Shown: positions 20,570 through 42,637 of the stretch, in pieces | How the letters are laid out: every line of letters starts with the position of its first letter | How positions within the stretch are numbered: position 1 is the first letter of the stretch | Assembly: GCF_019039035.1 (NCBI RefSeq) | Contig: NZ_JAHNZT010000003.1 | Location: 62,001 to 126,000, forward strand | DNA: 64,000 nucleotides | Direction of reading: 5' to 3' | Source: Citreicoccus inhibens | GTDB taxonomy: Bacteria > Myxococcota > Myxococcia > Myxococcales > Myxococcaceae | Position numbers and translations under genes: made by a program | Notes under the pieces: model-generated | Database searches by the model: none | Seen by the model: the letters and a program-made list of their open reading frames with translations, nothing else | What the model was told of the DNA's origin: nothing

Positions 20570-22051
20570 ATGCCCCGAGCATCAGCCCCGCCACGGCGCG
20601 CCCGCCCCTCGCAGCTCGCCCCGCTGGCGACGCGGCAACCCGCGCCCGCCCCGCTGCTGCCCTCGGGGTTGCTCGAGCGCCTCCTGGCCGAGGCCATGGC
20701 GCGCGGAGGGGACTTCGCCGAGGTCTACGTCGAGCGGACCTCCACCACGGCGGTGGTCCTGGAGGAGTCGCGCATCCGGAGCGCCCAGGTGGGCCTGGTG
20801 CAGGGCGTGGGCGTCCGAGTCATCGCCGGGGCCAAGGTGGGCTACGCCTACTCGGACGACTGGGACGAGCCCGCCCTGGTGCGCGCGGCCCGGACCGCCG
20901 CGATGATTGCCCAGGGGGGCGGCGCCGAGCGCGCGTTCCCGGTGCACCGCGCGCCAGTGCCCAGCCACTACCGGGTGGCCACGCCGCTGGAGGACGTGGC
21001 GGTGGCGCTCAAGACGAAGCTGCTGACCCGCGCGGACCGGGCGGCGCGCGGCTTCGACTCGCGCATCCAGCAGGTGAACGCCACCTACGTGGACCAGACG
21101 CGGCGCATCGCCGTGGCGAACACGAACGGCCACTACTGCGAGGACACCCAGGACCTGTGCCGGCTGGCGGTGCACGTGGTGGCGCTGGGCAAGGGCAACG
21201 AGCGGCGCACGGGCATGTACGGCGGCGGCGGCCGGGTGCCCTTCACGCACTGGGACCTGCACCCGCCCGAGGAGGTCGCCCGCGAGGCGGCCCGGCAGGC
21301 CGTCGCCACGTTGGGCGCGGTGGACTGCGCGGCGGGTCCGCAGACGGTGGTGCTCGCGCCGGGCTGGAGCGGCATCCTCCTGCATGAGGCGGTGGGCCAC
21401 GGCCTGGAGGCGGACTTCATCCGCAAGGGCACGTCCCTCTTCGCTGGGAAGCTGGGCGAGAAGGTCGCCTCGGAGCTCGTGACGGTCATCGACGACGGCA
21501 CGGTGGCGAGCGCCCGCGGCTCCATCAACGTCGACGACGAGGGCACGCCCGCCGAGCGCAAGGTCCTCATCGAGAAGGGCGTCCTGAAGGGCTACCTCTA
21601 TGACTCGCTCAACGCGAAGTTGATGGGCCAGCGATCCACGGGCAGCGGACGCCGCGAGACGTTCAAGAGCATGCCCCTGCCCCGCATGACGAACACGTTC
21701 CTGGCCCCCGGAGACCACGCGCCCGAGGACATCCTCGGCGAGGTGAAGCGCGGGCTGTACTGCGCCACCTTCGGCGGCGGACAGGTGGACATCAGCAACG
21801 GCAACTTCGTCTTCGAGGTGAGCGAGGCCTATCAAATCGAGGACGGCAAGCTGGGCCGCCCGGTGAAGAACGCCATCCTCGTGGGCGTGGGACCCGAGGC
21901 GCTGAAGAACGTCACGCGCGTGGGGTGCGATCCGCGCCCGGATCCGGGCATGGGCGTCTGTGTGAAGGACGGGCAGATGCTGCCGGTGGGCGTGGGGCTG
22001 CCCACGGTGCGAATCGACAACGTGACGGTGGGCGGCACGCGGGTCGGCTGA
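20570..22051 (+). CDS. tldD: TldD family zinc metalloprotease subunit
   Basis: The 493-residue protein is TldD, the catalytic half of the TldD/TldE heterodimer. That complex degrades unfolded peptides and processes some modified peptides. The metal-binding HEAVGH lies at 272-277, with the later Cys-containing GLYCATFGGGQVDISNGNF segment expected to complete the site. The C-terminal block with VGVGPEAL and TVRIDNVTVGG is family-typical. It starts at ATG 20570 with an N-terminal Arg/Pro-rich extension of ~30 residues before the conserved LLPSGLLERLL. The partner gene follows after 27 bp. Confidence 0.95.
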   Translation: MPRASAPPRRARPSQLAPLATRQPAPAPLLPSGLLERLLAEAMARGGDFAEVYVERTSTTAVVLEESRIRSAQVGLVQGVGVRVIAGAKVGYAYSDDWDEPALVRAARTAAMIAQGGGAERAFPVHRAPVPSHYRVATPLEDVAVALKTKLLTRADRAARGFDSRIQQVNATYVDQTRRIAVANTNGHYCEDTQDLCRLAVHVVALGKGNERRTGMYGGGGRVPFTHWDLHPPEEVAREAARQAVATLGAVDCAAGPQTVVLAPGWSGILLHEAVGHGLEADFIRKGTSLFAGKLGEKVASELVTVIDDGTVASARGSINVDDEGTPAERKVLIEKGVLKGYLYDSLNAKLMGQRSTGSGRRETFKSMPLPRMTNTFLAPGDHAPEDILGEVKRGLYCATFGGGQVDISNGNFVFEVSEAYQIEDGKLGRPVKNAILVGVGPEALKNVTRVGCDPRPDPGMGVCVKDGQMLPVGVGLPTVRIDNVTVGGTRVG

Positions 22052-22078
22052 GGCCGGACGGAAAGGGAGACGTCGACC

Positions 22079-23428
22079 ATGAGCAACTACGAGCAGCTCG
22101 CGAAGAAGGTCGTCCAGCGCGCGAAGAAGAAGGGCGCCCAGCAGGCCGAGGCGTTCCTCGAGGTGGGCCGCCAGAGCAGCGTCCGCGTGCGCGAGGGCCA
22201 GGTGGAGGACCTCACCGAGGCCACCAGCAAGGGCGTGGGCGTCCGCGTCATCGTCAAGGACCGGCTGGGCTTCGCCTTCACGTCCGACTTCACGCCCTCC
22301 GGCTTGGACCGCGTCGCGGACCTCGCCGTGCAGTTGGCCGAGGCCGCCGCCCCCAACAAGCTCAACGGACTGCCCACGCGCAACGAGCTGGGCAAGTCCG
22401 TGGATCCAGGCCCCCTCTTCGACCCGAAGGTGGCGGGGCTCGCCGGCGATTGGAAGATTCGCGCCGCCCTCGAGGCCGAGAAGGCCGGGCGCGACGAGGA
22501 CGCTCGCGTGGCCACGTTCGACTCGGTGTCCGCCGGTGACTTCGTGACGGAGGTCTACCTGGCCTCCAGCGAGGGCATGACCGGGAGCCACAGCGGCACC
22601 TACGTGTACATCGTCGCGGTGCCAGTGGCCTCGGAGGCGGGCCAGCTCCAGACGGGCTACTGGCTGGACTACAAGCGCTTCCTCGACGACCTGGAGTCGC
22701 CCGAGTCCATCGGCCGCGAGGCCGCGCGCCGGGCGGTCCGGATGCTGGGCGCCCGACAGGTGAAGACACAGCAGGTGCCAGTGCTGTTTGATCCGCTGGT
22801 GGCCGCTTCCTTCGTGGGCAACCTCGCCACCGCCGCGGACGGCAATGCCGTGCACCAGAAGGCCAGCGTGCTGGCGTCGCTCAAGGGCAAGCGGCTGGCG
22901 GGCTCGCATGTGACGCTGGTGGATGACGGCCTGCTCGCGCGCGGCCTCGCCACCACGCCGTTCGACGGCGAAGGCGTGCCCACGCGGCGCACGCCCATCC
23001 TGGATCAGGGCGTGCTCACCCACTTCCTCTACGACGCGTTCACGGCTCGCAAGGCCAAGGCGCGCACCACGGGCAACGCGGCGCGTGGCTACAACGCGCT
23101 GCCGGGCATCGGCACCACCAACCTCTACCTGGAGCCGGGCCAGCGCGCGCCCGAGGAGCTGATCCGCGAGGTGGATCAGGGCCTCTACGTGACGGCGCTC
23201 CTGGGGCACGGCGCGGATCCGGTGTCCGGAGACCTGTCCGCCGGGGCCACCGGCCTGTGGATCCACAAGGGCGAGCTGACGCATCCCGTGCAGGAGGTCA
23301 CCGTGGCGGGCAACCTGCTCCAGATGCTGACCGACCTGGACGCGGTGGCCAGCGACCTCCAGTTCCGCGGCGGCCCCGTGGGCGCGCCCACTGTCCGCTT
23401 CCGGCAGCTCACCGTCTCGGGCGCGTAG
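22079..23428 (+). CDS. pmbA: PmbA/TldE metalloprotease partner subunit
   Basis: The 449-residue protein is the non-catalytic TldE/PmbA partner of the adjacent TldD. It shares the fold but has PLVAASFVGNL where TldD has HExxH, as expected. Conserved segments include GVGVRVIVKDRLGFAFTSDF near the N-terminus and the C-terminal GDLSAGATGLWI, a family end-block. AAGGGAGACG before ATG 22079 serves as ribosome site, 27 bp after tldD, so the two are one operon. In other bacteria the pair matures peptide antibiotics or toxins; no such precursor gene is visible beside it here. Confidence 0.95.
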   Translation: MSNYEQLAKKVVQRAKKKGAQQAEAFLEVGRQSSVRVREGQVEDLTEATSKGVGVRVIVKDRLGFAFTSDFTPSGLDRVADLAVQLAEAAAPNKLNGLPTRNELGKSVDPGPLFDPKVAGLAGDWKIRAALEAEKAGRDEDARVATFDSVSAGDFVTEVYLASSEGMTGSHSGTYVYIVAVPVASEAGQLQTGYWLDYKRFLDDLESPESIGREAARRAVRMLGARQVKTQQVPVLFDPLVAASFVGNLATAADGNAVHQKASVLASLKGKRLAGSHVTLVDDGLLARGLATTPFDGEGVPTRRTPILDQGVLTHFLYDAFTARKAKARTTGNAARGYNALPGIGTTNLYLEPGQRAPEELIREVDQGLYVTALLGHGADPVSGDLSAGATGLWIHKGELTHPVQEVTVAGNLLQMLTDLDAVASDLQFRGGPVGAPTVRFRQLTVSGA

Positions 23429-23559: not shown

Positions 23560-24558
23560 ATGGCAGCGAAGTCCGCACGCAAGGCCGCCGCCAAGACGAC
23601 GACGCGCAAGCCGCGCCGCAAGAAGGCCGAGCCGGAGTCCCGAGGACTCACCGTGGCGGAGGTCGCCAGCGACGCCGCCGCGTACCCCGTCGAGTTGCTG
23701 GAGGCGGTCCGCGCCGACGGCGGCGAGGTGCTCAGCGTCTATCGGGATCCGCTGGGCGCGCACCCGGTGGTGCTCGCCGCGCTGCCCATCGACAAGGTGG
23801 AGCCCACGCCCTACCAGCGCGACCTGTCCGAGCCCCACGTGAAGCGGCTCGCCACCGCGATGGAGCGGTTGGATCGCTTCCTCGACCCCGTCATCGCGGT
23901 GCGCAAGGACGGCCGGTACTGGACGCCCAACGGCAACCACCGGCTGCACGCCAGCAAGCTGCTGGGCGCCAAGGCCATCGTCGCGCTGCTCCTGCCCGAG
24001 GAGGACGTGGCCTATCAAATCCTCGCCCTCAACACGGAGAAGGCCCACAACCTCAAGGAGCGCTCCTTGGAGGTCATCCGCATGTACCGCGGACTGGTGG
24101 GCGCCGGGCGCGCGGGCCCCGAGACGAACTTCGCGCCCCTCTTCGACGAGCCCTCGTTCATCACCCTGGGCGCGGCCTATGAGCTGCGCCCCCGCTTCTC
24201 CGCGGGCGCCTACCACCCCTTCGTCAAACTGGTGGAGTCCTTCCAGGCCCGGCCACTCGCCGAGATGCTCCCCCTGCGCGAGGCCCGCGCCGCGCGCCTC
24301 CTGGAGCTGGACGACGCGGTCGTCGCCGTCGTCAACGCGCTCAAGGAGCGGGGCATGCAGAGCCCCTACCTCAAGAACTTCGTCGTCGCGCGCATCAACT
24401 TCCTGCGCTTCCGCAAGGACGGCGCGCCGCCGGACTTCGACGCCACCCTGGACCGGATGCTCGCGAGCGCCCGCAAGTTCAAGGTGGACTCGGTGCGCAA
24501 GGAAGACATCGGGCGCATGGGCGGCGGGCCCCTGGAGCCGGATGAGGACGCCAGCTAG
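23560..24558 (+). CDS. ParB/sulfiredoxin-fold nuclease-like domain protein
   Basis: The 332-residue protein begins with a Lys/Arg/Ala-rich tail (residues 1-25, histone-like), then a ParB N-terminal-like domain (~60-170). The LPIDKVEPTPYQRDLSEPHVKRL segment corresponds to ParB box I. GNHRLHASKLLG stands where ParB has its GERRxRA nucleotide-binding box. No ParB-type helix-turn-helix or dimer domain follows; instead ~160 residues are helical and unassigned. It is not the chromosomal segregation ParB, since there is no ParA and the box differs. A regulatory or CTP/ATP-binding role is possible. GGGAGGGGC precedes ATG 23560. Confidence 0.8.
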   Translation: MAAKSARKAAAKTTTRKPRRKKAEPESRGLTVAEVASDAAAYPVELLEAVRADGGEVLSVYRDPLGAHPVVLAALPIDKVEPTPYQRDLSEPHVKRLATAMERLDRFLDPVIAVRKDGRYWTPNGNHRLHASKLLGAKAIVALLLPEEDVAYQILALNTEKAHNLKERSLEVIRMYRGLVGAGRAGPETNFAPLFDEPSFITLGAAYELRPRFSAGAYHPFVKLVESFQARPLAEMLPLREARAARLLELDDAVVAVVNALKERGMQSPYLKNFVVARINFLRFRKDGAPPDFDATLDRMLASARKFKVDSVRKEDIGRMGGGPLEPDEDAS

Positions 24559-24606
24559 GGAACAAGCCTTGCAAGTCCGAGGTCCGCGAAAGGCACACGC
24601 ACACCC

Positions 24607-26001
<1,395 letters not shown>

Positions 26002-26032
26002 CAGGGCGTCACACCAGCCCCCGCTCGCTTTT

Positions 26033-26043
26033 GACAATTTGTC
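26033..26043. promoter_or_regulatory. small dyad upstream of the secretion operon
   Basis: GACAATTTGTC has inverted arms GACA/TGTC around ATT, 32 bp after the regulator stop and about 140 bp before the predicted transcription start. It could be an activator site. Confidence 0.35.
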
Positions 26044-26087
26044 CGCACGGCGGCACGGGCCTGCTCGCCCCCTCGGGCGCGTCCGCT

Positions 26088-26105
26088 ATTCCGAAATAAT
26101 TCCGA
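26088..26105. promoter_or_regulatory. tandem ATTCCGA repeats, possible activator site
   Basis: ATTCCGA occurs at 26088-26094 and 26099-26105. The copies are 11 bp apart, about one helical turn, at roughly -87 to -70 relative to the predicted sigma-54 start. The local base composition is AT-rich for this genome. Confidence 0.4.
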
Positions 26106-26148
26106 GCACTTGGCCGTAAGGCTCCAGTTCCCCGCCCGCCTCTGCCGG

Positions 26149-26164
26149 TGGCACTTGGCTTGCT
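26149..26164 (+). promoter_or_regulatory. sigma-54 (-24/-12) promoter of the type II secretion operon
   Basis: TGGCAC (26149-26154) and TTGCT (26160-26164) form a near-consensus RpoN promoter. Exactly 10 bp separate the invariant GG (26150-26151) and GC (26162-26163). The start would be near 26175, about 22 nt before the gspC ATG. Confidence 0.8.
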
Positions 26165-26196
26165 GAATCCGGGGCTGGCTTTCTCTTGGAAGCGTG

Positions 26197-27123
26197 ATGG
26201 AACTCTTCTTTCGCAAATACTTCTGGACGGTGAGCTTGCTGTTCATCCTGTTCGTCGCCTTGCTGGCGGCGCGCACGGTGAACCTGTTCGTCGAGTCCGC
26301 CATCGCGCCGGCCCCCTCTTCGGGGCAGTCCGCGCGCGCGCCGCACCACGCCCGTGCGGCGGAAACCAGCATGGCCTCGCTCGACATCGAGCGGCTGTCC
26401 AAGCTCACCGGCATCAAGATTCCCGAGCCCGAGGTGGCGGTGAAGGAGCCCGAGGGGCCGCCTCAGATGGACCCCAACGCGCCCCCCGCCAAGAGCGGCA
26501 TGCGCGTGAAGCTCCTGGGCACGCTCGTGGCGGCCAACCCGGAGTGGTCCTTCGCGTCCATCCAGGACATGGTGACCCAGCGCTCGCAGACATACATGGT
26601 CGGCAACACGCTGCAGGGCGCCATGATCATGGAGATCGAGCGCGAGCGCGTCATCATCAACAACGGGGGCCGCCGCGAGTTCATCGATGGGCAGCCCGGT
26701 GACGGCGCCGTCGCGGCCTACACGCCGCCGCCCACCACCGCGCCCGCCAACACCGCGCCGCCCGCCAGCAACGGCCTGGGCAACGGCATCAAGGCGCTCA
26801 GCGAGAACGAGTACGAGGTGCCCAAGGCGGAGATTGACCGCACCCTGGGCAACCTCAACGACGTGGCCATGCAGGCGCGCATCGTTCCGGCCTTCAAGGA
26901 TGGGCAGGCCGTGGGCTTCAAGCTCTTCTCCATCCGCCCGGATTCCATCTATTCGAAGATTGGCGTCCAGAACGGTGACGTCATCCGACGCATCAACGGC
27001 TTCGACATGAACAGTCCAGAGAAGGCTCTGGAGGTCTACTCGAAGCTGAAGGACTCCTCTCGTATCGAGATCGAGATCGAGCGCAACGGAGCGCCGATCC
27101 GCAAATCGTACAACGTCCGTTAA
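26197..27123 (+). CDS. gspC: type II secretion inner-membrane protein GspC
   Basis: The 308-residue protein has a short cytoplasmic tail and one transmembrane helix (~10-30). A homology region with VKLLGTLVAANPEWSFASIQD (~100-120) follows, then a Pro/Ala linker and a C-terminal PDZ-like domain (~205-305, with KIGVQNGDVIRRINGF). GspC links the inner-membrane platform to the secretin. Adjacent GTG (26194) and ATG (26197) codons could both start; ATG is better spaced from GGAAG. It is the first gene after the sigma-54 promoter. Confidence 0.92.
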   Translation: MELFFRKYFWTVSLLFILFVALLAARTVNLFVESAIAPAPSSGQSARAPHHARAAETSMASLDIERLSKLTGIKIPEPEVAVKEPEGPPQMDPNAPPAKSGMRVKLLGTLVAANPEWSFASIQDMVTQRSQTYMVGNTLQGAMIMEIERERVIINNGGRREFIDGQPGDGAVAAYTPPPTTAPANTAPPASNGLGNGIKALSENEYEVPKAEIDRTLGNLNDVAMQARIVPAFKDGQAVGFKLFSIRPDSIYSKIGVQNGDVIRRINGFDMNSPEKALEVYSKLKDSSRIEIEIERNGAPIRKSYNVR

Positions 27124-27149: not shown

Positions 27150-29747
27150 ATGAAGACGCTCCTGTCCTGGATGCTCTGTCTGTGCCTCGCGCTCGCCGCT
27201 CCCGCGTGGGCGCAACGCCGTCCTTCGCTGCCCGATAACGCTCCTCCGGGAACGCGGACGATCTCCCCGCAGGCGCCCACCGCGCCCGCCACGAACCCGG
27301 GCTCCGGCAACGAGTCCCAGGGCTCGCGCACCACGCCCACCTGTGAGGACGCCCGGCGCCACGCGCGCTACGGCATCTACTTCGACAAGGTGGAGATCGA
27401 GAAGCTGGTGCAGACCGTCTCGGACGCGACCTGCAAGACGTTCATCCTCCCGGAGAACGTGCGCGGGAAGATCTCCATCATCGGACCGGAGAACGGCCGC
27501 GTGGAAGTGGACGCGGACCAGTTCTACTCCGCGTTCCTCGCCGCGCTCGACGCCAACGGGCTCGCCGTCTACCCCTACGGGCGCTTCCTGAAGATTGTCG
27601 ACAAGCGCTCCGCCAAGCAGAACCCCATCCCCACCATCACGGATCCGGATCAGCCGTACACCACCAATGAGCAGATGGTGACGAAGCTGTTCAAGATCAA
27701 GAACGTGGAAGTGGAGCCCCTGCGTGGCGTGCTCCAGCAACTCGTGTCCAAGGACGGCGACACCATCCCGTTCCCGCCGGACACCATCATCGTCAACGAC
27801 GTGGGCTCCAACATCCACCGCTTGGAGCGGTTGATTGATCAGCTCGACAGCCGCGCCGCCAGCGACGAGATGCGCGTCATCCAGGTGCAGTACGCCACCG
27901 CGCAGGACGTGGCCACCACGGTGCAGCGCCTCTTCGAGTCCAAGACGACGCGCCCGGGTCAGCGCCCCGGCTCGTTCACGCCGCCCGTCAACCCGGGGGG
28001 CCCTCCCGGCGAGGGCTCCGTGGCCGCGGGTGGCCAGGAGGCCAGCGGTGGCCCGGTGACGCTCACGCAGATCCTCCCGGACGAGCGCACCAACAAGCTC
28101 ATCATCGTCGCCAGCCCCGCGGCGTTCGCGCGCATCCAGGACATCGTCCGGGAGATCGACATCCCGGCGGGCGGCGGCGGCCGCATCAACATCTACGCGC
28201 TGGAGAACGCCAACGCGGAGGAGCTGGCCAGCACGCTCCAGTCGCTGGCGCAGGGCACGGCCAATCGTCCGCGCAACCTCCCCGCGCCCCAGCCTCCCGG
28301 TGGCATGCAGCAGCGCCCGGCGGGCACGCAGGCGGCGGAGCTGTTCAGCGGCGAGGTGAAGATCTCCGCGGACAAGGGCACCAACTCGCTCGTCATCATC
28401 GCGAGCCAGTCGGACTACAAGAACCTGGTCCAGGTCATCCAGCAGTTGGATCAGCCGCGCCGGCAGGTGTTCGTCGAGGCCGTCATTATGGAGGTGAACC
28501 TCGACCGCAACAGCGAGTTCGGCATCAACGTCCACCAGGGCTTCAGCCTGAAGGCGGGAGACAACGACGCCGCGGGCATCGTGGGCACGAAGTACACCTC
28601 GTCCGGCGCGCCCCCCTCGTTCAGCCTCGCCAACCTGGCCAGCTTCGGCGGCTTCCTCGCCGGCATCCAGGGCCCGGTCATCCCCGCCCTGAAGAACCTG
28701 GGCATCGACATCCCCGCCTTCGGCGTGGTCCTGCACGCGCTCCAGCAGTCCTCGGACGTGAACGTGCTGTCCACCCCGCACATCCTCACCAGCGACAACG
28801 AGGAGGCGGAGATCACCGTGGGCCAGAACGTCCCGTTCCAGTCCGGCTTCTCGCCCTCCAGCCTGAGCGGCGCCGCGGGCGGCACCGGCACCGCTGGCGG
28901 CCTCAACCCATCGCTGCTCGCGTCGCTGGGCGGCCTGGGCTCGCTCTACGCGCCCATCACCCGCCAGAACGTGGAGCTGAAGCTCACCGTCAAGCCGCAG
29001 ATCAACGAGAGCGACTACATCCGGCTGGTCATCACCGAGCAGACCGAGGAGATCGCCTCGACGGATCCGGTGCTCGGCCCCACCACCAGCAAGCGCAGCG
29101 CGAAGACGACGGTCATCGCCAAGGACCAGGAGACCGTGGTCATCGGCGGCATCATGCAGGACCGCACCATTGAGTCCGTGGCCAAGGTGCCAGTGCTCGG
29201 CGACATCCCGCTCATCGGTCACCTGTTCCGCCAGACGACGAACAAGAAGACCAAGACGAACCTGCTGCTCTTCCTCACGCCCTACATCATCCGGGGCCAG
29301 GAGGACTTCCGCCGCATCTTCGAGCGCAAGATGAAGGAGCGGCAGCAGTTCGTGGAGCAGTTCTACGGCCAGGTGGCGGGCTACGACGTGGCGGTGGACT
29401 TCAGCCGCAAGCCCGGTCCGCTCATGCGCATGAACCAGGCCGTCATGAAGGAGGAGCAGCGGGTGGAGAATGGTGGCCCGGGCTCAGCGGGCGAGCGCGT
29501 CATCCGGCCAACCGCCCCCCAGGCTCCCCAGGCAGCCCCCCGCGCGAACCCGCAGTCCCCCGCCCCCTCGCCCGCTCCGGGCGCGGGCCCCGAGGTCCAA
29601 GCGCCGGCCAACGGCCGGGACTTCGCAGCGCCCGCCACGGGTTCCGACAAATCAGCGCCCGCTCCGAGCGCGCAGCCCGCGGCCCCCGCGTCCCGTCCGG
29701 ACGCGTCGCCCGAGCGCCTGCGCATCCAGCCGGGCCAGGGGGAATGA
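27150..29747 (+). CDS. gspD: type II secretion outer-membrane secretin GspD
   Basis: The 865-residue protein carries a signal peptide ending AWA-Q (~22). Four N-domains follow: N0 ~60-150, and N1-N3 ~165-440, with Gly/Pro insertions between. The secretin domain (~450-715) contains VPVLGDIPLIGHLFR and ends with NLLLFLTPYII. A ~110-residue Pro/Ala-rich tail (~755-865) after the secretin is longer than usual and of unknown role. The protein forms the multimeric exit channel in the outer membrane. No pilotin gene is visible in the cluster. It begins 26 bp after gspC. Confidence 0.95.
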   Translation: MKTLLSWMLCLCLALAAPAWAQRRPSLPDNAPPGTRTISPQAPTAPATNPGSGNESQGSRTTPTCEDARRHARYGIYFDKVEIEKLVQTVSDATCKTFILPENVRGKISIIGPENGRVEVDADQFYSAFLAALDANGLAVYPYGRFLKIVDKRSAKQNPIPTITDPDQPYTTNEQMVTKLFKIKNVEVEPLRGVLQQLVSKDGDTIPFPPDTIIVNDVGSNIHRLERLIDQLDSRAASDEMRVIQVQYATAQDVATTVQRLFESKTTRPGQRPGSFTPPVNPGGPPGEGSVAAGGQEASGGPVTLTQILPDERTNKLIIVASPAAFARIQDIVREIDIPAGGGGRINIYALENANAEELASTLQSLAQGTANRPRNLPAPQPPGGMQQRPAGTQAAELFSGEVKISADKGTNSLVIIASQSDYKNLVQVIQQLDQPRRQVFVEAVIMEVNLDRNSEFGINVHQGFSLKAGDNDAAGIVGTKYTSSGAPPSFSLANLASFGGFLAGIQGPVIPALKNLGIDIPAFGVVLHALQQSSDVNVLSTPHILTSDNEEAEITVGQNVPFQSGFSPSSLSGAAGGTGTAGGLNPSLLASLGGLGSLYAPITRQNVELKLTVKPQINESDYIRLVITEQTEEIASTDPVLGPTTSKRSAKTTVIAKDQETVVIGGIMQDRTIESVAKVPVLGDIPLIGHLFRQTTNKKTKTNLLLFLTPYIIRGQEDFRRIFERKMKERQQFVEQFYGQVAGYDVAVDFSRKPGPLMRMNQAVMKEEQRVENGGPGSAGERVIRPTAPQAPQAAPRANPQSPAPSPAPGAGPEVQAPANGRDFAAPATGSDKSAPAPSAQPAAPASRPDASPERLRIQPGQGE

Positions 29748-29751
29748 GTCC

Positions 29752-31569
29752 ATGAACGTGACCGCGGATCCCACCACTCAAGGCGCCGCCCCGACCGGCG
29801 CGTCGCCACGCAACGACGCCACCCAGGTCGTCGCCCATGGTCAGGCCTATCTGTGCGGCCGTCCGCTGGGGGAGATCCTCCGCGCGCTCGTTCCGGCGCT
29901 GACCGAGGAGAAGATCCAGGAGGCGCTCGCCACGCAGGCCGAGAAGGGTGGCCGTCTGGGCGAGGTGCTGGTCGGGATGAAGGCGGTCACCGAGGAGGAC
30001 GTGGCGCGCGCACTCGGCCACCAGCTCGACCTGCCCTATCTCCAGCGCATCTTCACCGAAGAGGTGGATGTCGAGCTGGTCAAGCGCATCCCCATCAACT
30101 TCGCGCGCCAGACGCACATCCTGCCGCTCGCCGTGGAGGGAGACGCCGTCGTCCTCGCCGCGGCGGATCCGCTGGACACCACCGCGTTGGACCACGCGCG
30201 GCTGCTGCTCGGGCAGAACATCAGCCCGCGCATCGCGCTGGCGTCCACCATCGTCGACACCATCAACGCCGTGTACGACCGCTCGGTCAACGAGGCCGAG
30301 CAGCTCGTCGACGAGATGGAGACGACCGAGGACCTGGACTCCCTCGCCCATGAGCTGGAGGAGCCCAAGGACCTGCTCGACGCGGACGACGAGGCTCCGG
30401 TCATCCGACTGGTGAACTCGGTGCTCTTCCGCGCCGCCAAGGAGCGCGCGAGCGACATCCACATCGAGCCCATGGAGCGCGAGCTGCTCGTGCGCTTCCG
30501 CGTGGACGGCGTGCTCCAGGAAGTCATCAAGCCGCCCAAGCGTTACCAGAACTCCATCGTCGCTCGCGTCAAGGTGATGGGGCAGCTGAACATCGCGGAG
30601 AAGCGCCTGCCGCAAGACGGCCGCATCCGCATCAAGCTGGCCGGACGCGACATCGACATCCGCTTGTCCACCATCCCCACCTCGTTCGGCGAGCGCATCG
30701 TCATGCGTCTGCTGGACAAGTCGGCCACGCTGCTGGACCTGGCGGAGATTGGCATGAGCCAGCAGGTGCTGGGCTCCATGTCGGCGGTCATCAAGCGCTC
30801 GCACGGAATCGTCCTGGTGACGGGCCCCACGGGCTCCGGCAAGACGACCACGCTCTACGGCGCCCTGTCGAAGATCAACACGCCGGACCTCAACATCCTC
30901 ACCGTCGAGGACCCCGTCGAGTACCAGCTCAAGGGCATCAGCCAGATGGCGATCGCCCCGAAGATTGGCCTCACCTTCGCCCAGGGCCTGCGCTCCTTCC
31001 TGCGCCAGGACCCGGACGTCATCATGGTCGGTGAGATCCGCGACAAGGAGACGGCGGAAATCGCCATCCAGGCCTCGCTCACCGGCCACCTCGTGCTCTC
31101 CACGGTGCACACCAACGACGCGGCCGGCGCCGTCACCCGTCTGGTCGACATGGGCGTGGAGCCGTTCCTCGTGGCGTCGTCGCTCACCGGCATCCTCGCC
31201 CAGCGCCTCGTGCGCCGGGTGTGCCCGGACTGCCGGCAGCCGTACACGCCCACGGACATCGAGCTGCGGGAGCTGGGACACACCCTGGCGTCCTTCAAGG
31301 CCCGCTATGGCGTGGACCGCATCTACAAGGCGCTGGGCTGCCCGGCGTGCAACCGCAACGGCTACCGCGGCCGCACCGGCATCTACGAGTTCCTGACCGT
31401 GGACGATGACGTGCGTCAGCTCGTCCTCAAGAACGTGGACGCGGGCACCATCAAGAAATCCGCGCTGTCCAAGGGGATGTTGACCCTCTTGGAGGACGGT
31501 GCACGCAAGGTGGCGCTGGGCGAGACGACCATCGCCGAGGTGCTGAGCATCACGCAGGAGGACATCTAA
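29752..31569 (+). CDS. gspE: type II secretion ATPase GspE
   Basis: This 605-residue cytosolic ATPase powers pseudopilus assembly. It has an N-terminal MshEN/N1E region (~35-190), an N2E domain, then the RecA-like core. Core motifs are Walker A GPTGSGKT (358-365), the Asp/Glu box NILTVEDPVEYQL, Walker B DVIMVGEIRD and the His box STVHTND. A zinc module CPDC...CPAC (two CX2C pairs) sits near the C-terminus. ATG 29752 follows CAGGGGGA and lies 4 bp after the gspD stop. The open frame continuing upstream overlaps gspD's Pro-rich tail and is spurious. Confidence 0.96.
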   Translation: MNVTADPTTQGAAPTGASPRNDATQVVAHGQAYLCGRPLGEILRALVPALTEEKIQEALATQAEKGGRLGEVLVGMKAVTEEDVARALGHQLDLPYLQRIFTEEVDVELVKRIPINFARQTHILPLAVEGDAVVLAAADPLDTTALDHARLLLGQNISPRIALASTIVDTINAVYDRSVNEAEQLVDEMETTEDLDSLAHELEEPKDLLDADDEAPVIRLVNSVLFRAAKERASDIHIEPMERELLVRFRVDGVLQEVIKPPKRYQNSIVARVKVMGQLNIAEKRLPQDGRIRIKLAGRDIDIRLSTIPTSFGERIVMRLLDKSATLLDLAEIGMSQQVLGSMSAVIKRSHGIVLVTGPTGSGKTTTLYGALSKINTPDLNILTVEDPVEYQLKGISQMAIAPKIGLTFAQGLRSFLRQDPDVIMVGEIRDKETAEIAIQASLTGHLVLSTVHTNDAAGAVTRLVDMGVEPFLVASSLTGILAQRLVRRVCPDCRQPYTPTDIELRELGHTLASFKARYGVDRIYKALGCPACNRNGYRGRTGIYEFLTVDDDVRQLVLKNVDAGTIKKSALSKGMLTLLEDGARKVALGETTIAEVLSITQEDI

Positions 31570-31613: not shown

Positions 31614-32870
31614 ATGCCGGTCTTCGAATACAGAGCACTCAACAGCGCGGGTAAGCAGATCAAGGGTCTGCTGGAGGCGGACTCGCCCAAGACGCTGCGC
31701 ACCAAGCTGCGCGCGGATGGCCTCTTTCTCACGGACGTCCTCGGCCAGGCCGAGGGCAGCCGCGGCGCCGTGGCCCAGGGGGGCAATGCCTCCCTGGTGG
31801 CGCGCGACATCAACCTGCGCAAACTGGCGGGCGGGCGCGTCAGCACCGAGGACGTCGCCATCCTCACCCGCCAGCTCGCCACGCTGCTGGGCGCGGGCGT
31901 CACCGTGGTGGACTCGCTCAACGCCCTGGTGGACCAGGCGGAGAAGGAGCGCCTCAAGCGCGCCCTCTCGGACATCAAGCAGCGCGTCAACGAGGGCTCG
32001 TCCCTGGGTGACGCGTTCGGAGCCCACCCGAAAATCTTCCCCAGCATCTACGTCAACATGGTGCGCGCGGGAGAGGCCTCGGGCGCGCTGGAGACGGTGC
32101 TGCTGCGTCTGGCGGACTTCACGGAGAACCAGGCCAAGCTGCAGCAGAAGATCATCGGGACCATGCTCTACCCCGCCATCATGATGGTGGTGGGCGGCGG
32201 CATCCTGGTGCTGCTGATGGTGTTCGTCGTTCCGAAGGTGACGAAGATCTTCGAGACGATGAAGGCCACGCTGCCCATCCAGACGCGCATCCTCATCGCC
32301 ACGAGCAACTTCCTGCAGGGGTGGTGGTTCGTCATCTTCCCGGCCATGGTGGCCGGGGCGATCTTCTTCGCCCGCTGGACGAAGAGCCCCAAGGGCAAGC
32401 CCAAGTGGGATCGCTTCACGCTCAAGGCGCCCATCTTCGGCAGCCTCGTGCGCCTGCTGGCCATCTCGCGCTTCGCCCGGACGCTGTCCACGCTGCTCAA
32501 GAGCGGCGTGCCCATGTTGGCCGCGCTCGACATCGTCAAGGCCATCATGACCAACTCGGTGCTGGCCGAGGCCGTGGAGAACGCCCGCGAGTCCATCCGC
32601 GAGGGCGAGAGCATCGCCAACCCGCTCAAGCGCTCGGGACAGTTCCCGCCGCTCGTCTACCACATGGTCGCCATCGGCGAGCGCTCGGGCCAGCTCGAGG
32701 ACATGCTCATGTCCGTGGCGGACAGCTACGAGACGCAGGTGAACGTGCGCATCGGCGCCCTCACCTCGCTGCTGGAGCCCATCCTCATCGTGATGATGGG
32801 CGCGGTGATTGCATTCGTCGCGTTCTCCATCCTGATGCCAATCCTTCAGGTGAACACGGCCATCCACTAG
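31614..32870 (+). CDS. gspF: type II secretion inner-membrane platform protein GspF
   Basis: The 418-residue protein has two homologous GspF domains (~80-200 and ~280-405). Three transmembrane segments are visible, e.g. MMVVGGGILVLLMVFVVPKV and the C-terminal IVMMGAVIAFVAFSILMPI. The N-terminus MPVFEYRAL is canonical. It is the polytopic platform that couples GspE to pseudopilin polymerisation. It begins 44 bp after gspE and is followed by a small membrane gene. Confidence 0.95.
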   Translation: MPVFEYRALNSAGKQIKGLLEADSPKTLRTKLRADGLFLTDVLGQAEGSRGAVAQGGNASLVARDINLRKLAGGRVSTEDVAILTRQLATLLGAGVTVVDSLNALVDQAEKERLKRALSDIKQRVNEGSSLGDAFGAHPKIFPSIYVNMVRAGEASGALETVLLRLADFTENQAKLQQKIIGTMLYPAIMMVVGGGILVLLMVFVVPKVTKIFETMKATLPIQTRILIATSNFLQGWWFVIFPAMVAGAIFFARWTKSPKGKPKWDRFTLKAPIFGSLVRLLAISRFARTLSTLLKSGVPMLAALDIVKAIMTNSVLAEAVENARESIREGESIANPLKRSGQFPPLVYHMVAIGERSGQLEDMLMSVADSYETQVNVRIGALTSLLEPILIVMMGAVIAFVAFSILMPILQVNTAIH

Positions 32871-33096: not shown

Positions 33097-33504
33097 ATGA
33101 CGACGATGAACACGAAGTCGCAGCGCCGCCGCAGCCGTCGAGGCATGACCCTCATCGAGATCATGGTGGTCATCACCATCCTCGGCCTCATCGCGGCCGC
33201 GGTGGGCGTGGCCGTGATTCCGAAGCTGGAGGAGGCGAAGCAGGACACGGCTCGCCTGGACATCAAGAACATCCAGAGCGCCCTGAAGCTCTACTACACG
33301 AAGAAGGGCAGCTACCCCGACACGGGCACGGGCCTGAAGGCGCTGGTGGACACGCAGAACCTGGAGAAGGTGCCCACCGACCCCTGGGGTCACGAGTACG
33401 TGTACATGAACGAGGGCGGCAAGCCGGTCATCATCTCGTACGGCGCGGATGGCAACGCGGGCGGCGAGGGCTCGGACGCCGACATCTCCTCCAAGGACAA
33501 GTAG
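33097..33504 (+). CDS. gspG: major pseudopilin GspG
   Basis: The 135-residue protein is the main pseudopilin. A basic leader (~17 residues) ends at Gly followed by MTLIEIMVVITILGLIAA, the prepilin-peptidase site. It has the +5 Glu and Met rather than Phe at +1. The soluble part has PTDPWGHEYVYMNEG and the calcium-loop region with repeated Asp (SYGADGNAGGEGSDADI). ATG 33097 is preceded by GAGGAG; an in-frame start 33 bp upstream is less well placed. A GspO peptidase must be supplied from elsewhere, as none is in this window. Confidence 0.96.
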   Translation: MTTMNTKSQRRRSRRGMTLIEIMVVITILGLIAAAVGVAVIPKLEEAKQDTARLDIKNIQSALKLYYTKKGSYPDTGTGLKALVDTQNLEKVPTDPWGHEYVYMNEGGKPVIISYGADGNAGGEGSDADISSKDK

Positions 33505-33564
33505 GCGCGGCGCTCGAACGCGAAGCCGACGCGCCTCTCACGTGTTGTCGTAGGAATGGCCCCG

Positions 33565-33999
33565 ATGACCGAGCTTTCTTCCTCTCCGACTCCTCCCGCG
33601 CAGGCGCGTCCTCCCCGGACCGGGAAGGTCCTGCTCGGCGTCGTCTTCACCGCGGCGACGCTGCTGGCCTTCGGTCTGGTGTGGGCCACCAACGACGCCA
33701 CGCTCAGCCCTCCACAGCGCCAGGCGCGCGACCAGATTCGCCGCTTGGAGGGCATCTTCAAGTCCTACAACCGGCTGATGGGGCGCTTCCCCACGCAGGA
33801 GGAGGGCTTCCAGCCGCTCCTGGACTCGAAGGTGCTCGGCCAGATTCCGATGGACCCCTGGGGCCACCCGTACGTGTACCGGATGGAGGGCCGCACGGGC
33901 GCCGTGCTCTCGCTCGGCTCGGACGGCCAGCCGGGGGGCACGGGAGACGCAACGGATGTCTTCAGCGGTGGGCTCGTGGCGCAGGGAGGTCAACCTTGA
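33565..33999 (+). CDS. GspG-like protein lacking the prepilin leader
   Basis: The 144-residue protein resembles the C-terminal half of GspG: RLEGIFKSYNRLMGRFPTQ, IPMDPWGHPYVYRMEG and LGSDGQPGGTGDATDVF with its calcium-loop aspartates. The N-terminus differs: a Pro-rich tail and an ordinary transmembrane helix (KVLLGVVFTAATLLAFGLVWA, ~22-42), with no Gly-Phe/Met cleavage site or +5 Glu. It should therefore be a fixed membrane protein rather than a polymerising pseudopilin. ATG 33565 has TAGGA 9 nt upstream; the ATG at 33556 is too close to it. Gene order between gspG and gspH suggests a dedicated role, not a decayed copy. Confidence 0.85.
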   Translation: MTELSSSPTPPAQARPPRTGKVLLGVVFTAATLLAFGLVWATNDATLSPPQRQARDQIRRLEGIFKSYNRLMGRFPTQEEGFQPLLDSKVLGQIPMDPWGHPYVYRMEGRTGAVLSLGSDGQPGGTGDATDVFSGGLVAQGGQP

Positions 34000-34727
34000 G
34001 GTTCTCGCCCTTCTCGGCCGCGTGGCGTCAGCGCTCGCGCCGCGGGCTGACCCTCATTGAAATCTCCATCGCGCTCGCCATCGCCGCGGTGTTGTTCGGC
34101 GCCGTGGCCATTGGCATCGGGGCGCTGACCGGGGCCAAGGCGAAGAGTTCCGCGGTGGAGATGGCGGGCGTCATCCGCTCGCTCTACGACTCGGCGGCGC
34201 TGAGCGGCAAGACGTGCCGGCTCGTCTTCGAGATCCCCGACCCCAAGAGCGAGGAGGCCACGCGCTACCACGCGGAATGCGCGGGCAGCGGCGTCACCAC
34301 CTCGCGCGACCGGGACTCCGCGCTGAAAGACGACGCGAAGGCGCGCACGGAGCGCGCACGGGCCCACGGCAGCGGGCGCGACGAGCGGCGCAACTACACG
34401 CGCTCGGACAACAGCACCCCGTCCGCGCAGGAGCTGATGGCCCAGGAGAAGGAGCGCGTCGAGGAGACGACGAAGTTCTCCTCCTTCACCGCCGAGGAGG
34501 TGGGCCCTCGCGAGTTGCCCGCCGGCGTGTCCGTGTCCGTGTGGACACGCCAACAGCACGCCGCGGTGGAAAGCGGCGTGGCGTACCTCTACTTCTTCCC
34601 CCAGGGCTACACGGAGAAGGCGCTCGTGTACCTGCGCCAAGGCGAGAACGTGTGGACGCTGGATGTGTCACCCCTCACGGGCAAGGTGAACATCGTCGCC
34701 GAGGCCCTGGAGGTGCCCCGCTCATGA
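33996..34727 (+). CDS. gspH: minor pseudopilin GspH (TTG start)
   Basis: The 243-residue protein has a basic leader, then RRG followed by LTLIEISIALAIAAVLFG, a type IV prepilin N-terminus with Glu at +5. Start TTG 33996 is supported by an ideal GGGAGGT seven nt upstream and by the overlap with the preceding TGA (TTGA). No ATG would keep the leader. The soluble part is longer than classic GspH (~170) because of a charged, Asp/Arg-rich middle insertion (~100-165). It sits in the pseudopilus tip complex with GspI, J and K. Confidence 0.88.
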   Translation: MRFSPFSAAWRQRSRRGLTLIEISIALAIAAVLFGAVAIGIGALTGAKAKSSAVEMAGVIRSLYDSAALSGKTCRLVFEIPDPKSEEATRYHAECAGSGVTTSRDRDSALKDDAKARTERARAHGSGRDERRNYTRSDNSTPSAQELMAQEKERVEETTKFSSFTAEEVGPRELPAGVSVSVWTRQQHAAVESGVAYLYFFPQGYTEKALVYLRQGENVWTLDVSPLTGKVNIVAEALEVPRS

Positions 34728-35653
34728 GACGCACGCGCGGCTTCACCCTGCTGGAGGTGGTGGTGGCCATGGCCATCCTCTCGCTGGCGCTCATGGCCAT
34801 CTTCGACCTCAACTCGGGGGCCGTGGCCAACCACGCCTACACCAAGCGGCTCACGGTGGCGGCGCTCCTGGCCCGCTCGAAGATGACGGACCTGGAGCAG
34901 AAGCTCTACGACGAGGGTTTCCAGAACGACGACGACGAGGACTCCGGCGACTTCTCCGAAGAGGGCTGGCCCCAGTTCAAGTGGCGCGCGCGCATCATCG
35001 CGCCCCGAACGCAGGGCGTGTCACCGGATCAGCTCATCGGCGCCATCTTCAACCTGCCCATGGGGGGCGGCGGAGACGGCGACGGACTGGGTGGTCTCGC
35101 GGCGATGTTCGGCGGCGGCGCGGGAGACAAGAAGGGCGGAGACAGCGCCGCGGGCATGACGCAGGGAATGAGCGGCCTGCAGGGCTCGGCCATGAGCATG
35201 GCGCAGCCCATGTTCACGCAGATGGTGGACCAGCTCACCAAGTCCGTCCGCGAGGTGCACCTCACGGTGTACTGGAAGGACGGCAAGCAGGTGGAGAGCA
35301 TGGACGTGGTGACCCACGTCGTGTCGCTGGGGCCGGGTGGCGACCGCAATGGCTCCACGCCCTTCACGCCCAATCCGGGGAGCCAGCCGCAGAACTTGAG
35401 CGGCCAGTGGGTGGATCCGACCACGGGGATGATCGTCCAGAATCCCGTGCCGGGTCCGGACGGTCGCACCATGCTCGACCCGATCTCGCGCAAGCCCCTG
35501 CAGAACCGCACCGAGTGGCTGCAGCAGCAGAACGGCGGCTCGCAGCGCCCGGGCACGGGCATGGGCACGGGCGGCATCGTCCCGAATGCACCGAACAATC
35601 CGTTGGGCCGGTTCAACATGCCGAACTTCGGTGCGGGAAGGAACTTCCAATGA
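34724..35653 (+). CDS. gspI: minor pseudopilin GspI with long glycine/proline-rich C-terminal extension
   Basis: It starts MRRTRGFTLLEVVVAMAIL, a perfect prepilin cleavage site with +1 Phe and +5 Glu. The first ~110 residues look like GspI. From ~residue 108 the chain continues for ~200 residues that are Gly/Asp/Met-rich then Pro/Asn/Gln-rich, so the protein is 309 residues where GspI is usually ~125. No frameshift is needed to explain it; the frame and codon use are consistent to the stop. ATG overlaps the gspH stop (ATGA). Confidence 0.87.
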   Translation: MRRTRGFTLLEVVVAMAILSLALMAIFDLNSGAVANHAYTKRLTVAALLARSKMTDLEQKLYDEGFQNDDDEDSGDFSEEGWPQFKWRARIIAPRTQGVSPDQLIGAIFNLPMGGGGDGDGLGGLAAMFGGGAGDKKGGDSAAGMTQGMSGLQGSAMSMAQPMFTQMVDQLTKSVREVHLTVYWKDGKQVESMDVVTHVVSLGPGGDRNGSTPFTPNPGSQPQNLSGQWVDPTTGMIVQNPVPGPDGRTMLDPISRKPLQNRTEWLQQQNGGSQRPGTGMGTGGIVPNAPNNPLGRFNMPNFGAGRNFQ

Positions 35654-36336
35654 GCTCTCGCATGAAGCGCCTCGGGCGCAGAGGGTTCACGCTGATGGAG
35701 GTGATGGTCGCCGTGGCCATCACCGCGCTCATGGGCACCGTGGTGGCCATGGCCTTCCAGACGGGCTTCAGCGCCAAGGAGACCGTGGAGGGCGAGGCCG
35801 AGCACTACCGGATGGTGCGCGTGGCGCTCAACCGCATGGCCCGCGAGATTGGCTCGGCCTACGTGAGCGACCGGTATGACCTGAAGCGCTTCCGCGACCA
35901 GAACGACCGGCCCACCAACTTCGTGGGCGAGCGCGACAAGCTGCTCTTCACCACGTTCGCCAACCAGCGCCTGTACACCGACGTGAAGGAGTCCGATCAG
36001 GCGGTGGTGGAATACTTCGTGGAGGCCTCCAACGACCGCGGCGCACGCGGGCGACTGGACCTCAAGCGGCGGGTCAACCCCAACGTGGGTGACCGCATGG
36101 ATCGCGGCGGAACCACGGACGTCCTGTTCGAGGGCGTCAAGACCTTGGAGTTCGCCTACTGGAACTCGGAGAAGAAGGAGTGGGATGACGAGTGGGACAC
36201 GCGCCGCAATGAGCAGCGCTCCATCCTCCCGACTCGCGTTCGAATCACCGTCACCGCGCTCGACGAGAATGGAAAGGAAGCGCGCTACACCACGCAGACG
36301 CGCGTGATGCTCAACACGGAGCTGCCGAGGTTCTGA
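35650..36336 (+). CDS. gspJ: minor pseudopilin GspJ
   Basis: The 228-residue protein has a basic leader and a RRGFTLMEVMVAVAITALMG prepilin site (+5 Glu). The soluble domain contains NRMAREIGSAYVSDRYDLK, typical of GspJ's long helix and beta sheet. It forms the tip subcomplex with I and K. The start ATG 35650 overlaps the gspI stop (ATGA), implying translational coupling. The stop TGA at 36334-36336 overlaps the gspK start (TGATG). Confidence 0.92.
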   Translation: MSSRMKRLGRRGFTLMEVMVAVAITALMGTVVAMAFQTGFSAKETVEGEAEHYRMVRVALNRMAREIGSAYVSDRYDLKRFRDQNDRPTNFVGERDKLLFTTFANQRLYTDVKESDQAVVEYFVEASNDRGARGRLDLKRRVNPNVGDRMDRGGTTDVLFEGVKTLEFAYWNSEKKEWDDEWDTRRNEQRSILPTRVRITVTALDENGKEARYTTQTRVMLNTELPRF

Positions 36337-37739
36337 TGCCCCTGCCCTTCTTCCAGCAGGCGCCCCGACGGAGGCGCCCCGCCAGCGCCGCCGCGCAGCC
36401 GCCTCGGGGACCGGCGGTCCGCGAGGGCCGTCGCTCGCGCGGCGTGGCGCTCATCATCGCGGTGGTGTCCATCGCGCTGCTCACGGTGGTGGCCACCGAG
36501 TTCGCGTACAACACGCGCGTGGACCTCCAGCTCGCCGCCAACCAGCGTGACGAGGTCCGCGCCTACTACATGGCGCGCTCGGGCATCGCGATGGGCCGGC
36601 TGCTCATGCGGTTCCAGAAGCAGGTGGACCAGACGCCCATCCCGAACATCGGCGACCTGCTCAAGCAGTTCATGCCCGGCGCCCAACAGGGAGGCCAGCA
36701 GCAGGCCCAGCCGCAGTCGCTCAACATCCAGCTCTGGAAGCTGGCGCGAGTGGACTGTCACATGCTCAAGGGGCTGGTGAAGAGCGACGCCGCGACGGAC
36801 GAAGAGGGCCGCTCGGAGACCGCGCCCGTGAAGGCGGACTCCAAGTTCCAGATGGAAAACGAGGACGAGGAGCAGGGCGGCTCATCCGAGGTCGCCTCGC
36901 AGATGCACAAGCGCTCCTTTGGCGGATTCGAGGGCTGCTTCCTGGCCACCATCAGCGACGAAGAGGAGAAGCTCAACGTCGTGCGGCTCAACTCGGGCGC
37001 GGGCGATGCATTGCCCACCGCGTCTCGACTCTTGGACATGATGTCCGACAAGCGCTTCGAGTTCCTCTGGGACCACGAGGACGCCAACAAGGTCCGCACC
37101 ACGCCCCAGGATGTCCTGCTCGCGATGAAGGACTGGGCTGACGACGACACCACCCAGTCCTCCCTCAACTTGAAGGACCCCACCAACCCGCTGGTGAATG
37201 GCTTCTCGGACGAGGGTTCGCCCTACAGCCGCTATGAGCCGCGCTACGAGCCGAAGAACGCCCGCTTCGACAGCCTGGACGAGCTGTACCGAGTGCACGG
37301 CGTGAACGACGCCTTCATGGCGGCCTTCCGGGACCGGCTCACGGTGTATCCGGACCCCAACTCCAAGCCCAACATCAACACGGATGATCCGGTGATGCTC
37401 GGCTTGGCCATCATGTCCGCGGCGGACCCGAGCCGGCCGGATCCCCGGCTGTCGGATCCGGTGTTCCTCAACGAGCTCATCTCGCGCATCCGCGCCGCGC
37501 GCATGTTCAGCTTCTTCGGGATGTCCGTGCAGGACTTCCTCGCCGTGATGGAGGCGGCGGGGGTCGCGACCAACCCGAGCATCAAGAGCAACGTCGCCAA
37601 CAATCGCTACCTGGGCGACAAGAGCACGACGTTCACCATCAAATCCGTGGGAGAAGCGGGCAGCGTCCAGAAGACGCTCACCGCGGTCATCCGGCTCGAC
37701 GACGGGCTGGGCAAGCTCCTGTACTGGAGAGAGGAATAG
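36336..37739 (+). CDS. gspK: minor pseudopilin GspK
   Basis: The 467-residue protein is the large minor pseudopilin at the pseudopilus tip. After a ~35-residue Arg-rich leader, SRGVALIIAVVSIALLTVVA is the membrane segment. Val or Ala stand where other pseudopilins have Phe, and no Glu is seen at +5, as known for GspK. The Asn/Asp-rich SNPNINTDDP-like PNSKPNINTDDPV region and final VGEAGSVQKTLTAVIRL block are family-typical. The protein is larger than many GspK (~320), owing to acidic insertions around 140-190. Confidence 0.92.
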   Translation: MPLPFFQQAPRRRRPASAAAQPPRGPAVREGRRSRGVALIIAVVSIALLTVVATEFAYNTRVDLQLAANQRDEVRAYYMARSGIAMGRLLMRFQKQVDQTPIPNIGDLLKQFMPGAQQGGQQQAQPQSLNIQLWKLARVDCHMLKGLVKSDAATDEEGRSETAPVKADSKFQMENEDEEQGGSSEVASQMHKRSFGGFEGCFLATISDEEEKLNVVRLNSGAGDALPTASRLLDMMSDKRFEFLWDHEDANKVRTTPQDVLLAMKDWADDDTTQSSLNLKDPTNPLVNGFSDEGSPYSRYEPRYEPKNARFDSLDELYRVHGVNDAFMAAFRDRLTVYPDPNSKPNINTDDPVMLGLAIMSAADPSRPDPRLSDPVFLNELISRIRAARMFSFFGMSVQDFLAVMEAAGVATNPSIKSNVANNRYLGDKSTTFTIKSVGEAGSVQKTLTAVIRLDDGLGKLLYWREE

Positions 37740-37740
37740 C

Positions 37741-39351: not shown

Positions 39352-39354
39352 GCC

Positions 39355-39912
39355 ATGGGAAAACTTCGGGAACTCTTCGGTCCCCTCCAGACGTGGTTCG
39401 AGCGGCTGAGCGATCGCGAGCGCAAGCTCGTGGCGCTGGCGGGCTCGGCCGTGGTGGCGTTCACCGTGTTCGCCATCCTCTTCAGCTTCGCCAACAGCGC
39501 GCAGGGCTACCGCCGGCGCACGCAGGACAAGCAGGCGAAGCTCCAGGACGTTCAGGCGCTGGCCGCCAGCTACCGCGAGGCCCAGTCCGAGCGGCAGGCG
39601 GTGGAGCAGCAGCTGACGCGCAGCAACGTGCGGCTCATCAGCTACATCGAGGACAAGGCCACGGCGGCCGGCCTCACCGTGCCCAACATGACGCCCAAGG
39701 GAGACGTGGGGATCGGGGACGGGAAGATCATCGAGAGCTCCGTGGAGCTGACCTTCACGGACGTGGACCTGCGCAAGCTGACCGACTTCCTGCGCACGGT
39801 GGAGAGCGGCCCGGGCGTGGTGAAGGTGAAGTACCTCCGCGTAGAGCCGCGGCCCGCCACCGACACGCTGGCGGTGTGGACCACCGTCGCCACCTACCGG
39901 ATGAAGCAATAA
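39355..39912 (+). CDS. gspM: type II secretion platform protein GspM
   Basis: The 185-residue bitopic protein has a cytoplasmic N-terminus, a transmembrane helix (~24-42) and a predicted coiled coil (~50-85), then a ferredoxin-like periplasmic domain. It pairs with GspL. The size and order fit GspM exactly, even though the sequence itself is weakly conserved. It starts 3 bp after gspL and ends 3 bp before gspN. Confidence 0.9.
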   Translation: MGKLRELFGPLQTWFERLSDRERKLVALAGSAVVAFTVFAILFSFANSAQGYRRRTQDKQAKLQDVQALAASYREAQSERQAVEQQLTRSNVRLISYIEDKATAAGLTVPNMTPKGDVGIGDGKIIESSVELTFTDVDLRKLTDFLRTVESGPGVVKVKYLRVEPRPATDTLAVWTTVATYRMKQ

Positions 39913-39915
39913 GCC

Positions 39916-40936: not shown

Positions 40937-40999
40937 TTGAAAGCCGGCCAGCGCGCCATGTAAAGGCATCCCCGGACTGACCTTCTGGGAGTGGCTGGG

Positions 41000-42637
<1,638 letters not shown>

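Follow-up and report, generated by a model that had tools for sequence, protein, structure and literature searches.

Which promoter drives the type II secretion (T2SS) genes in this window (the whole stretch of DNA analysed, 64,000 nucleotides), and which regulator acts on it, is the question raised by a sigma-54-type element lying immediately before gspC. The reading that we regard as very probable from comparison of sequences is that gspC-gspN would be a sigma-54 operon with a dedicated activator encoded upstream and a regulon of two operons.

The secretion cluster and the element before gspC

The genes run from gspC to gspN, and the type II secretion operon proposed in the first-pass annotation is borne out by six families (C, D, E, F, G and N) that score over their NCBIfam cut-offs, with K, L and M as weak matches. 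The cluster and its flanks comprise the following features.

26149-26164, + strand: sigma-54 -24/-12 element TGGCACTTGGCTTGCT, an exact match, conserved across the order
26197-27123, + strand: gspC, the ORF opening at GTG 26194 (NF041515 GspC_delta, 315.9 bits, cut-off 150)
27150-29747, + strand: gspD, the secretin (TIGR02517, above cut-off)
29752-31569, + strand: gspE, the ATPase, with an MshEN-type c-di-GMP-binding N-terminus (TIGR02533 and NF053729, above cut-off; start read from the sequence)
31614-32870, + strand: gspF (TIGR02120, above cut-off)
32798-32813, + strand: sigma-54-type site internal to gspF, GGGCGCG-N4-TTGCA, its bases identical to the listed M. xanthus MXAN2511 promoter
33097-33999, + strand: gspG and a second gspG-like gene (TIGR01710, 100 bits, above cut-off, and 46.3 bits, below cut-off)
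33681-36336, + strand: putative gspH, gspI and gspJ, overlapping ORFs with prepilin-like stretches recognised by eye
36336-40899, + strand: gspK, gspL (PilM-like), gspM and gspN (N above cut-off; K, L and M below)
40991-42637, + strand: a further sigma-54 activator, containing two FHA stretches and encoded downstream of gspN

The element TGGCACTTGGCTTGCT matches TGGCAC-N5-TTGCW exactly and contains the GG-N10-GC core, with GG at 26150-26151 and GC at 26162-26163 separated by exactly 10 bp, as had been claimed for a TGGCAC and TTGCT pair at this position. Taking -12 at 26163, transcription is predicted to start at 26175, which agrees with the start near 26175 put forward earlier. The distance of about 45 bp to gspC is likewise confirmed: the -24 element begins 45 bp 5' of GTG 26194 and 48 bp 5' of ATG 26197, and 29 bp separate the end of the element from the GTG. 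The ATG at 26197 is the likelier gspC start, because in sequence comparison the matches in more distant relatives begin at the second codon.

That TGGCACTTGGCTTGCT is a chance match within GC-rich intergenic DNA is a reading to which we give almost no credence. One-mismatch sigma-54 sites in the window are no commoner than expected (3 found against 4.73), so the case for a promoter depends on the exact match and on its conservation. The window contains a single exact TGGCACN5TTGC, where only 0.11 are expected (11 of 100 shuffles contain one); across the 9.05 Mb genome there are 14, compared with 3 occurrences of the reversed pattern. The site is moreover kept across the order at the same place and in the same orientation before gspC, which rules chance out as its explanation. 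Elsewhere in this genome another exact sigma-54 site (L013:1501-1515) lies ~58 bp before an ORF that looks heat-shock-sigma-like by eye.

Among 145 genomes of the order that were searched, 138 have a gspC match and 125 gspC upstream regions were used, the match in the 13 omitted genomes (G017, G029 and G037 among them) being partial, a paralogue or unlisted. The site is exact in 101 of the 125, has one mismatch in 17 and two or three mismatches in 7. Position and sequence are thus conserved together in 118 of 125 genomes with at most one mismatch, all of these sites lying 5-80 bp before the gene match, while 2500 shuffles gave 0.04% exact and 0.4% one-mismatch sites (0.44% with at most one mismatch). 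The 98 distinct promoter windows, chosen beforehand for having at most one mismatch, share an invariant GGCA and TTGC around a variable spacer. At 44 named loci, which overlap the order set and are not independent of it (45 were found, and L117, whose match starts within the gene, was omitted), the site is exact in 35, carries one mismatch in 6 and two or three in 3; loci with sites include those of Corallococcus, Myxococcus, Pyxidicoccus, Archangium and Hyalangium. Elsewhere in the phylum, a search of 49 genomes gave a GspC match in 46, and the best 30 by E-value were used, 29 of them outside the class; in these better-conserved genomes (16 lower-scoring ones were left out) the top sigma-54 site has 0, 1, 2 or 3 mismatches in 6, 12, 9 and 3 cases, respectively. 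The conservation among relatives, in counts that are not independent since the genomes compared are related, strongly supports the sigma-54 dependence predicted for the gsp promoter in the first-pass annotation. At loci L091-L110, several of them from MAGs, the predicted start point falls ~0-6 nt before the start of the gspC match, and a start so near gspC would give an almost leaderless mRNA.

The upstream activator and its putative sites

The gene directly upstream does encode an NtrC-type regulator, as first annotated, and between it and the promoter lies a putative activator site that had been overlooked, consisting of tandem TGACA-N3-TGTCA palindromes.

24607-26001, + strand: NtrC-family activator with a receiver, a sigma-54 AAA+ domain bearing GAFTGA and a Fis HTH (Pfam)
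25999-26011, + strand: distal putative activator site TGACAGGGCGTCA, which opens with the TGA stop codon of the activator gene
26032-26044, + strand: proximal putative activator site TGACAATTTGTCC, centred 125 bp before -12
26087-26118, + strand: conserved AT-rich block TATTCCGAAATAATTCCGAGCACTTGGCCGTA, from a 19-sequence alignment, between the activator sites and the promoter

NtrC-family activators combine a receiver-AAA+-Fis architecture with a phospho-acceptor Asp, a GAFTGA loop, distant tandem sites and a -24/-12 target. The protein encoded here carries a receiver (PF00072) with its phospho-acceptor Asp intact, a sigma-54-interacting AAA+ domain (PF00158, 240.2 bits) with the GA[FY]TGA loop, and a Fis-type HTH (PF02954). 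Across the order D54 is present in all 118 aligned orthologues that cover the position, and the aligned orthologues have the GA[FY]TGA loop (with one N). The recognition helix RTIYRK is near-invariant in the 118 order orthologues covering it (one has R for the last K) and takes the form RT[IV][YH]R[KR] in 25 of 25 covering non-order orthologues; it differs in 13 covering paralogues from the same genome and in three more distant non-order paralogues.

The regulator had also been called an orphan, a description that stands as far as the 10 window proteins scanned by profile search; no cognate histidine kinase is among those 10. In a motif scan reaching up to 1.5 kb on each side, a kinase-like ORF lies beside 1 of 27 non-order activator orthologues. 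At L001:2380-3000 (- strand), upstream of a second, gspC-like operon and with one ORF between, is a C-terminus that looks histidine-kinase-like by eye, and this protein is a candidate partner of the orphan activator. The stretch upstream of the activator gene encodes two TldD/PmbA-like metallopeptidases (20570-23428).

The centres of the distal and proximal palindromes are 33 bp apart, and TGACAWWTTGTC, from the proximal site, has its sole occurrence in the 9.05 Mb genome here. With TG[AC]CA-N3-TG[TG]CA as the form and up to one mismatch allowed, every one of the 118 promoter-bearing order genomes has a palindrome within 220 bp, compared with 8 of 688 control blocks; when the limit is 450 bp from gspC, the figures are 124 of 125 order genomes and 1 of 298 control blocks. 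The same 450-bp search finds it in all 30 non-order genomes (the best 30 of 46), perfect in 22, against 2 of 51 control blocks. Proximal centres vary by genome and fall mostly near -124, -113, -104, -83, -72 or -63, with off-phase centres at -117/-118 in four genomes and at -95, -86, -134 and -152 in one each. The best period for palindrome position in the order genomes, whose kinship limits the statistics, is near 10-10.5 bp, and the tandem palindromes in these non-independent genomes are spaced 31-33 or 40-42 bp apart with two exceptions. Such helical phasing and spacing are what an activator looping from one face of the DNA would need, within the same limit of relatedness. Between these sites and the promoter, the AT-rich block at 26087-26118 contains a TTCCGGAA-like inverted repeat in relatives and is perhaps, as a guess, a site for a bending protein or a second regulator.

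The activator gene need not be adjacent for the palindrome to be kept. In 25 order genomes checked for relocation, most of them picked for a non-adjacent activator, the gene is elsewhere in 23 and the palindrome still precedes gspC. An orthologue was not found for 6 of the 125 order genomes in the sequence used (G071, G057, G060, G085, G053 and G055). One of them, G053, is 100% complete and keeps the palindrome; its contig starts 8.6 kb upstream of gspC, and in two relatives in its genus the activator gene precedes gspC by ~5.6 and 9.2 kb, so the missing orthologue could, but need not, reflect a contig break. Outside the order (the best 30 of 46 genomes) the upstream stretches contain no close activator match, and 27 of the 30 have one somewhere in the genome at E 1e-118 or better. 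The three without an orthologue all belong to family f18, are 59-85% complete and keep their palindromes; two of them have sigma-54 sites with three mismatches only. Site and helix are therefore conserved jointly whether the genes lie together or apart, which supports binding of the palindrome by the activator and is the best non-experimental evidence that it would do so. The elements themselves, how conserved they are, how they pair with the recognition helix and how rarely they occur in the genome are all observed directly.

The same genomes bear on the possibility that gsp expression comes mainly from a housekeeping promoter or from read-through of the activator gene, with the sigma-54 site as an auxiliary. 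The activator gene and gspC are on the same strand 192 bp apart, a search of that strand for terminator-like sites gave none in the interval, and a machine required during growth might need constant expression. However, a simple scan of 24400-26300, a weak test for GC-rich genomes, did not find a sigma-70-like site, and in the 30 non-order genomes, where the upstream stretches contain no close activator match, the sigma-54 site has one mismatch or none in 18. Conservation so broad also ill suits a minor promoter, and we consider such an arrangement unlikely.

Predicted targets elsewhere and the proposed circuit

The composite pattern GACAN3TGTC-N83-113-TGGCN7TTGC, which joins palindrome and promoter, occurs at two places in the 9.05 Mb genome and at none in the reversed control; it was drawn with both places in view, so that the informative part is the lack of a third. 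On contig C28, the second place lies upstream of two consecutive gspC-like genes; its TGGCACTTCGATTGCT is exact, and its palindrome, centred 130 bp before -12, carries one mismatch. The ORF that follows this pair is ABC-F-like by eye and runs in the opposite direction.

Within the family the composite pattern is present in 74 of 96 genomes, with 127 hits against 16 in the reversed control. Of these, 68 are at the main gspC (G123:C39 being counted there by similarity to G122) and 59 elsewhere, the latter comprising 21 that were inspected (20 regions), 18 that were placed by coordinates and 20 remaining. A gspC-like match lies within 0.9 kb on the same strand at 16 of the 21 inspected hits, several of these matches covering the C-terminal part only, and the 18 placed by coordinates are ~0.9 kb or less upstream of gspC-like matches. 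Chance was rejected as the origin of most inspected hits on the strength of these 16; the other five have no gspC-like gene. From the positions of the hits, the regulon appears to consist of the T2SS and extra GspC paralogues, plus some chance hits.

GspC is thought to recruit cargo, and exchange of cargo through GspC paralogues would therefore be a natural idea. The title of PMC12369372 agrees with cargo recruitment by GspC. Co-regulated GspC paralogues suggest a testable route to retuning cargo choice.

In the proposed circuit, sigma-54 RNA polymerase would transcribe gspC-gspN from 26149-26164. The upstream-encoded activator would bind both palindromes, centred ~125 and ~158 bp before -12 and so about three helical turns apart; phosphorylation of its receiver at D54 would lead it to assemble as an AAA+ ring, and looping of the DNA would allow its GAFTGA loops to remodel the closed complex. 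Its regulon here would be two operons, that of the T2SS and the one on contig C28 with the two gspC-like genes. We infer four steps: binding of the sites, phosphorylation of the receiver, looping of the DNA and transcription. Similar wiring of promoter and site in many relatives suggests that one dedicated activator switches on the T2SS, and the likeliest reading is of a dedicated, phosphorylation-competent activator with a regulon of type II secretion and spare GspC subunits.

Relation to known systems

The proposed mechanism, an NtrC-family activator working with sigma-54, belongs to a known kind; its use here is unusual and widely conserved. With NtrC and Nla28 the activator shares its order of domains, a phospho-acceptor Asp and a GAFTGA loop, along with putative distant tandem sites and a -24/-12 target promoter. 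Unlike them, it has TGACA-N3-TGTCA as its putative site, its predicted regulon is mostly T2SS and gspC-like genes, and a kinase gene was not found alongside. Both type VI secretion and type III secretion are known to come under sigma-54 control (Bernard 2011 and HrpRS, as mentioned in the accessible part of PMC3162934). These systems likewise place a secretion machine under sigma-54 and activators, but here the target is the main T2SS operon, and the arrangement is conserved in the order and much of the phylum.

The closest precedent concerns the T2SS genes of M. xanthus. According to the accessible part of PMC9765219, Nla28 binds a sigma-54-type promoter at MXAN2511, internal to those genes; the table row for MXAN2511 reads 10, type II protein secretion systems, which we take as a ten-gene unit. 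MXAN2511 resembles the present case in belonging to the same gene cluster, as judged from gene numbers, and in pairing a sigma-54-type promoter with an NtrC-family activator. Unlike TGGCACTTGGCTTGCT, the MXAN2511 element is internal and weaker (GGGCGCG-N4-TTGCA), and Nla28 is another activator with another half-site; the accessible text of the paper contains no mention found of the gspC promoter. MXAN2514 is GspD in the part of PMC3222651 available, so that gspC would be MXAN_2515 and the activator MXAN_2516 in M. xanthus, a gene of which a literature search found no mention.

These observations bear on whether the sigma-54 promoter is real and its main driver another activator, Nla28-type or the downstream FHA-type, with the adjacent regulator acting elsewhere. 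The DNA-binding domain of Nla28 binds MXAN2511, listed as T2SS (PMC9765219, accessible part), and the sequence of that site recurs in gspF at 32798-32813. The gspF copy has three mismatches to the strict sigma-54 consensus, and its conservation may come from coding constraint. The FHA activator is present in 18 of 20 relatives searched; in 15 of these it shares the strand of gspC and lies 13-20 kb further downstream, and the conserved block at 26087-26118 is a further place where another regulator might act. However, the palindrome is unlike the Nla28 half-site CT[C/G]CG[C/G]AG (as given in the accessible part of PMC9765219), it tracks the recognition helix of the upstream activator in order and phylum, and palindrome and promoter occur together at only two places in the genome. 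We accordingly hold a different main driver to be quite improbable, and retain the dedicated upstream activator as the preferred reading.

For the wider group we take COG3031 to be GspC. In the part of PMC12316311 (2025) available, the predicted sigma-54 targets are enriched in T2SS COGs, with COG3031 on the list, and predominantly so in Myxococcia. These regulons agree with ours in placing the T2SS under predicted sigma-54 control in Myxococcia; unlike the present analysis, the accessible text gives aggregate statistics, and no activator, binding site or gspC-paralogue regulon was found there. The first-pass annotation had thought RpoN-dependent secretion noteworthy. The use is indeed unusual and widely conserved, but the surprise is lessened by PMC12316311 and PMC9765219, as far as their accessible parts go. 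The literature searched (supplements and most subscription papers being outside it) yielded no account of the gspC promoter together with its activator and binding site, nor of any T2SS operon under a single, dedicated sigma-54 activator. New here are a site and a regulon that appear dedicated, the gspC paralogues, and a possible link to sigma-54 being vital in Myxococcus; promoter, site and activator seem to have been kept throughout the order and in much of the phylum, a group of predatory and social bacteria.

The M. xanthus T2SS carries surface proteins, TraA for example (PMC11980579, PMC12288465), and sigma-54 deletion is lethal in M. xanthus only (PMC12316311), according to the accessible parts of these papers. 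With these two points, the circuit opens a direct test of why Myxococcus cannot do without sigma-54. A broader proposal, possible but doubtful, is that an ancient dedicated sigma-54 activator runs the T2SS across Myxococcota, that its regulon is the operon plus lineage-specific GspC paralogues swapped in to change cargo, and that T2SS transcription is one reason why sigma-54 is, unusually, indispensable in Myxococcus xanthus. Work by Sah in 2020 reportedly may bear on whether the T2SS is essential in M. xanthus. No statement on that essentiality was found in the literature searched, including the accessible parts of PMC11980579, PMC10433427 and PMC8460266.

A further input is suggested by GspE, whose MshEN-type N-terminus scores 45.2 bits against a cut-off of 38 (NF053729): with an N-terminus of the c-di-GMP-binding type, secretion may also answer to c-di-GMP. 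An EAL-domain protein is encoded in the window at 3866-5062.
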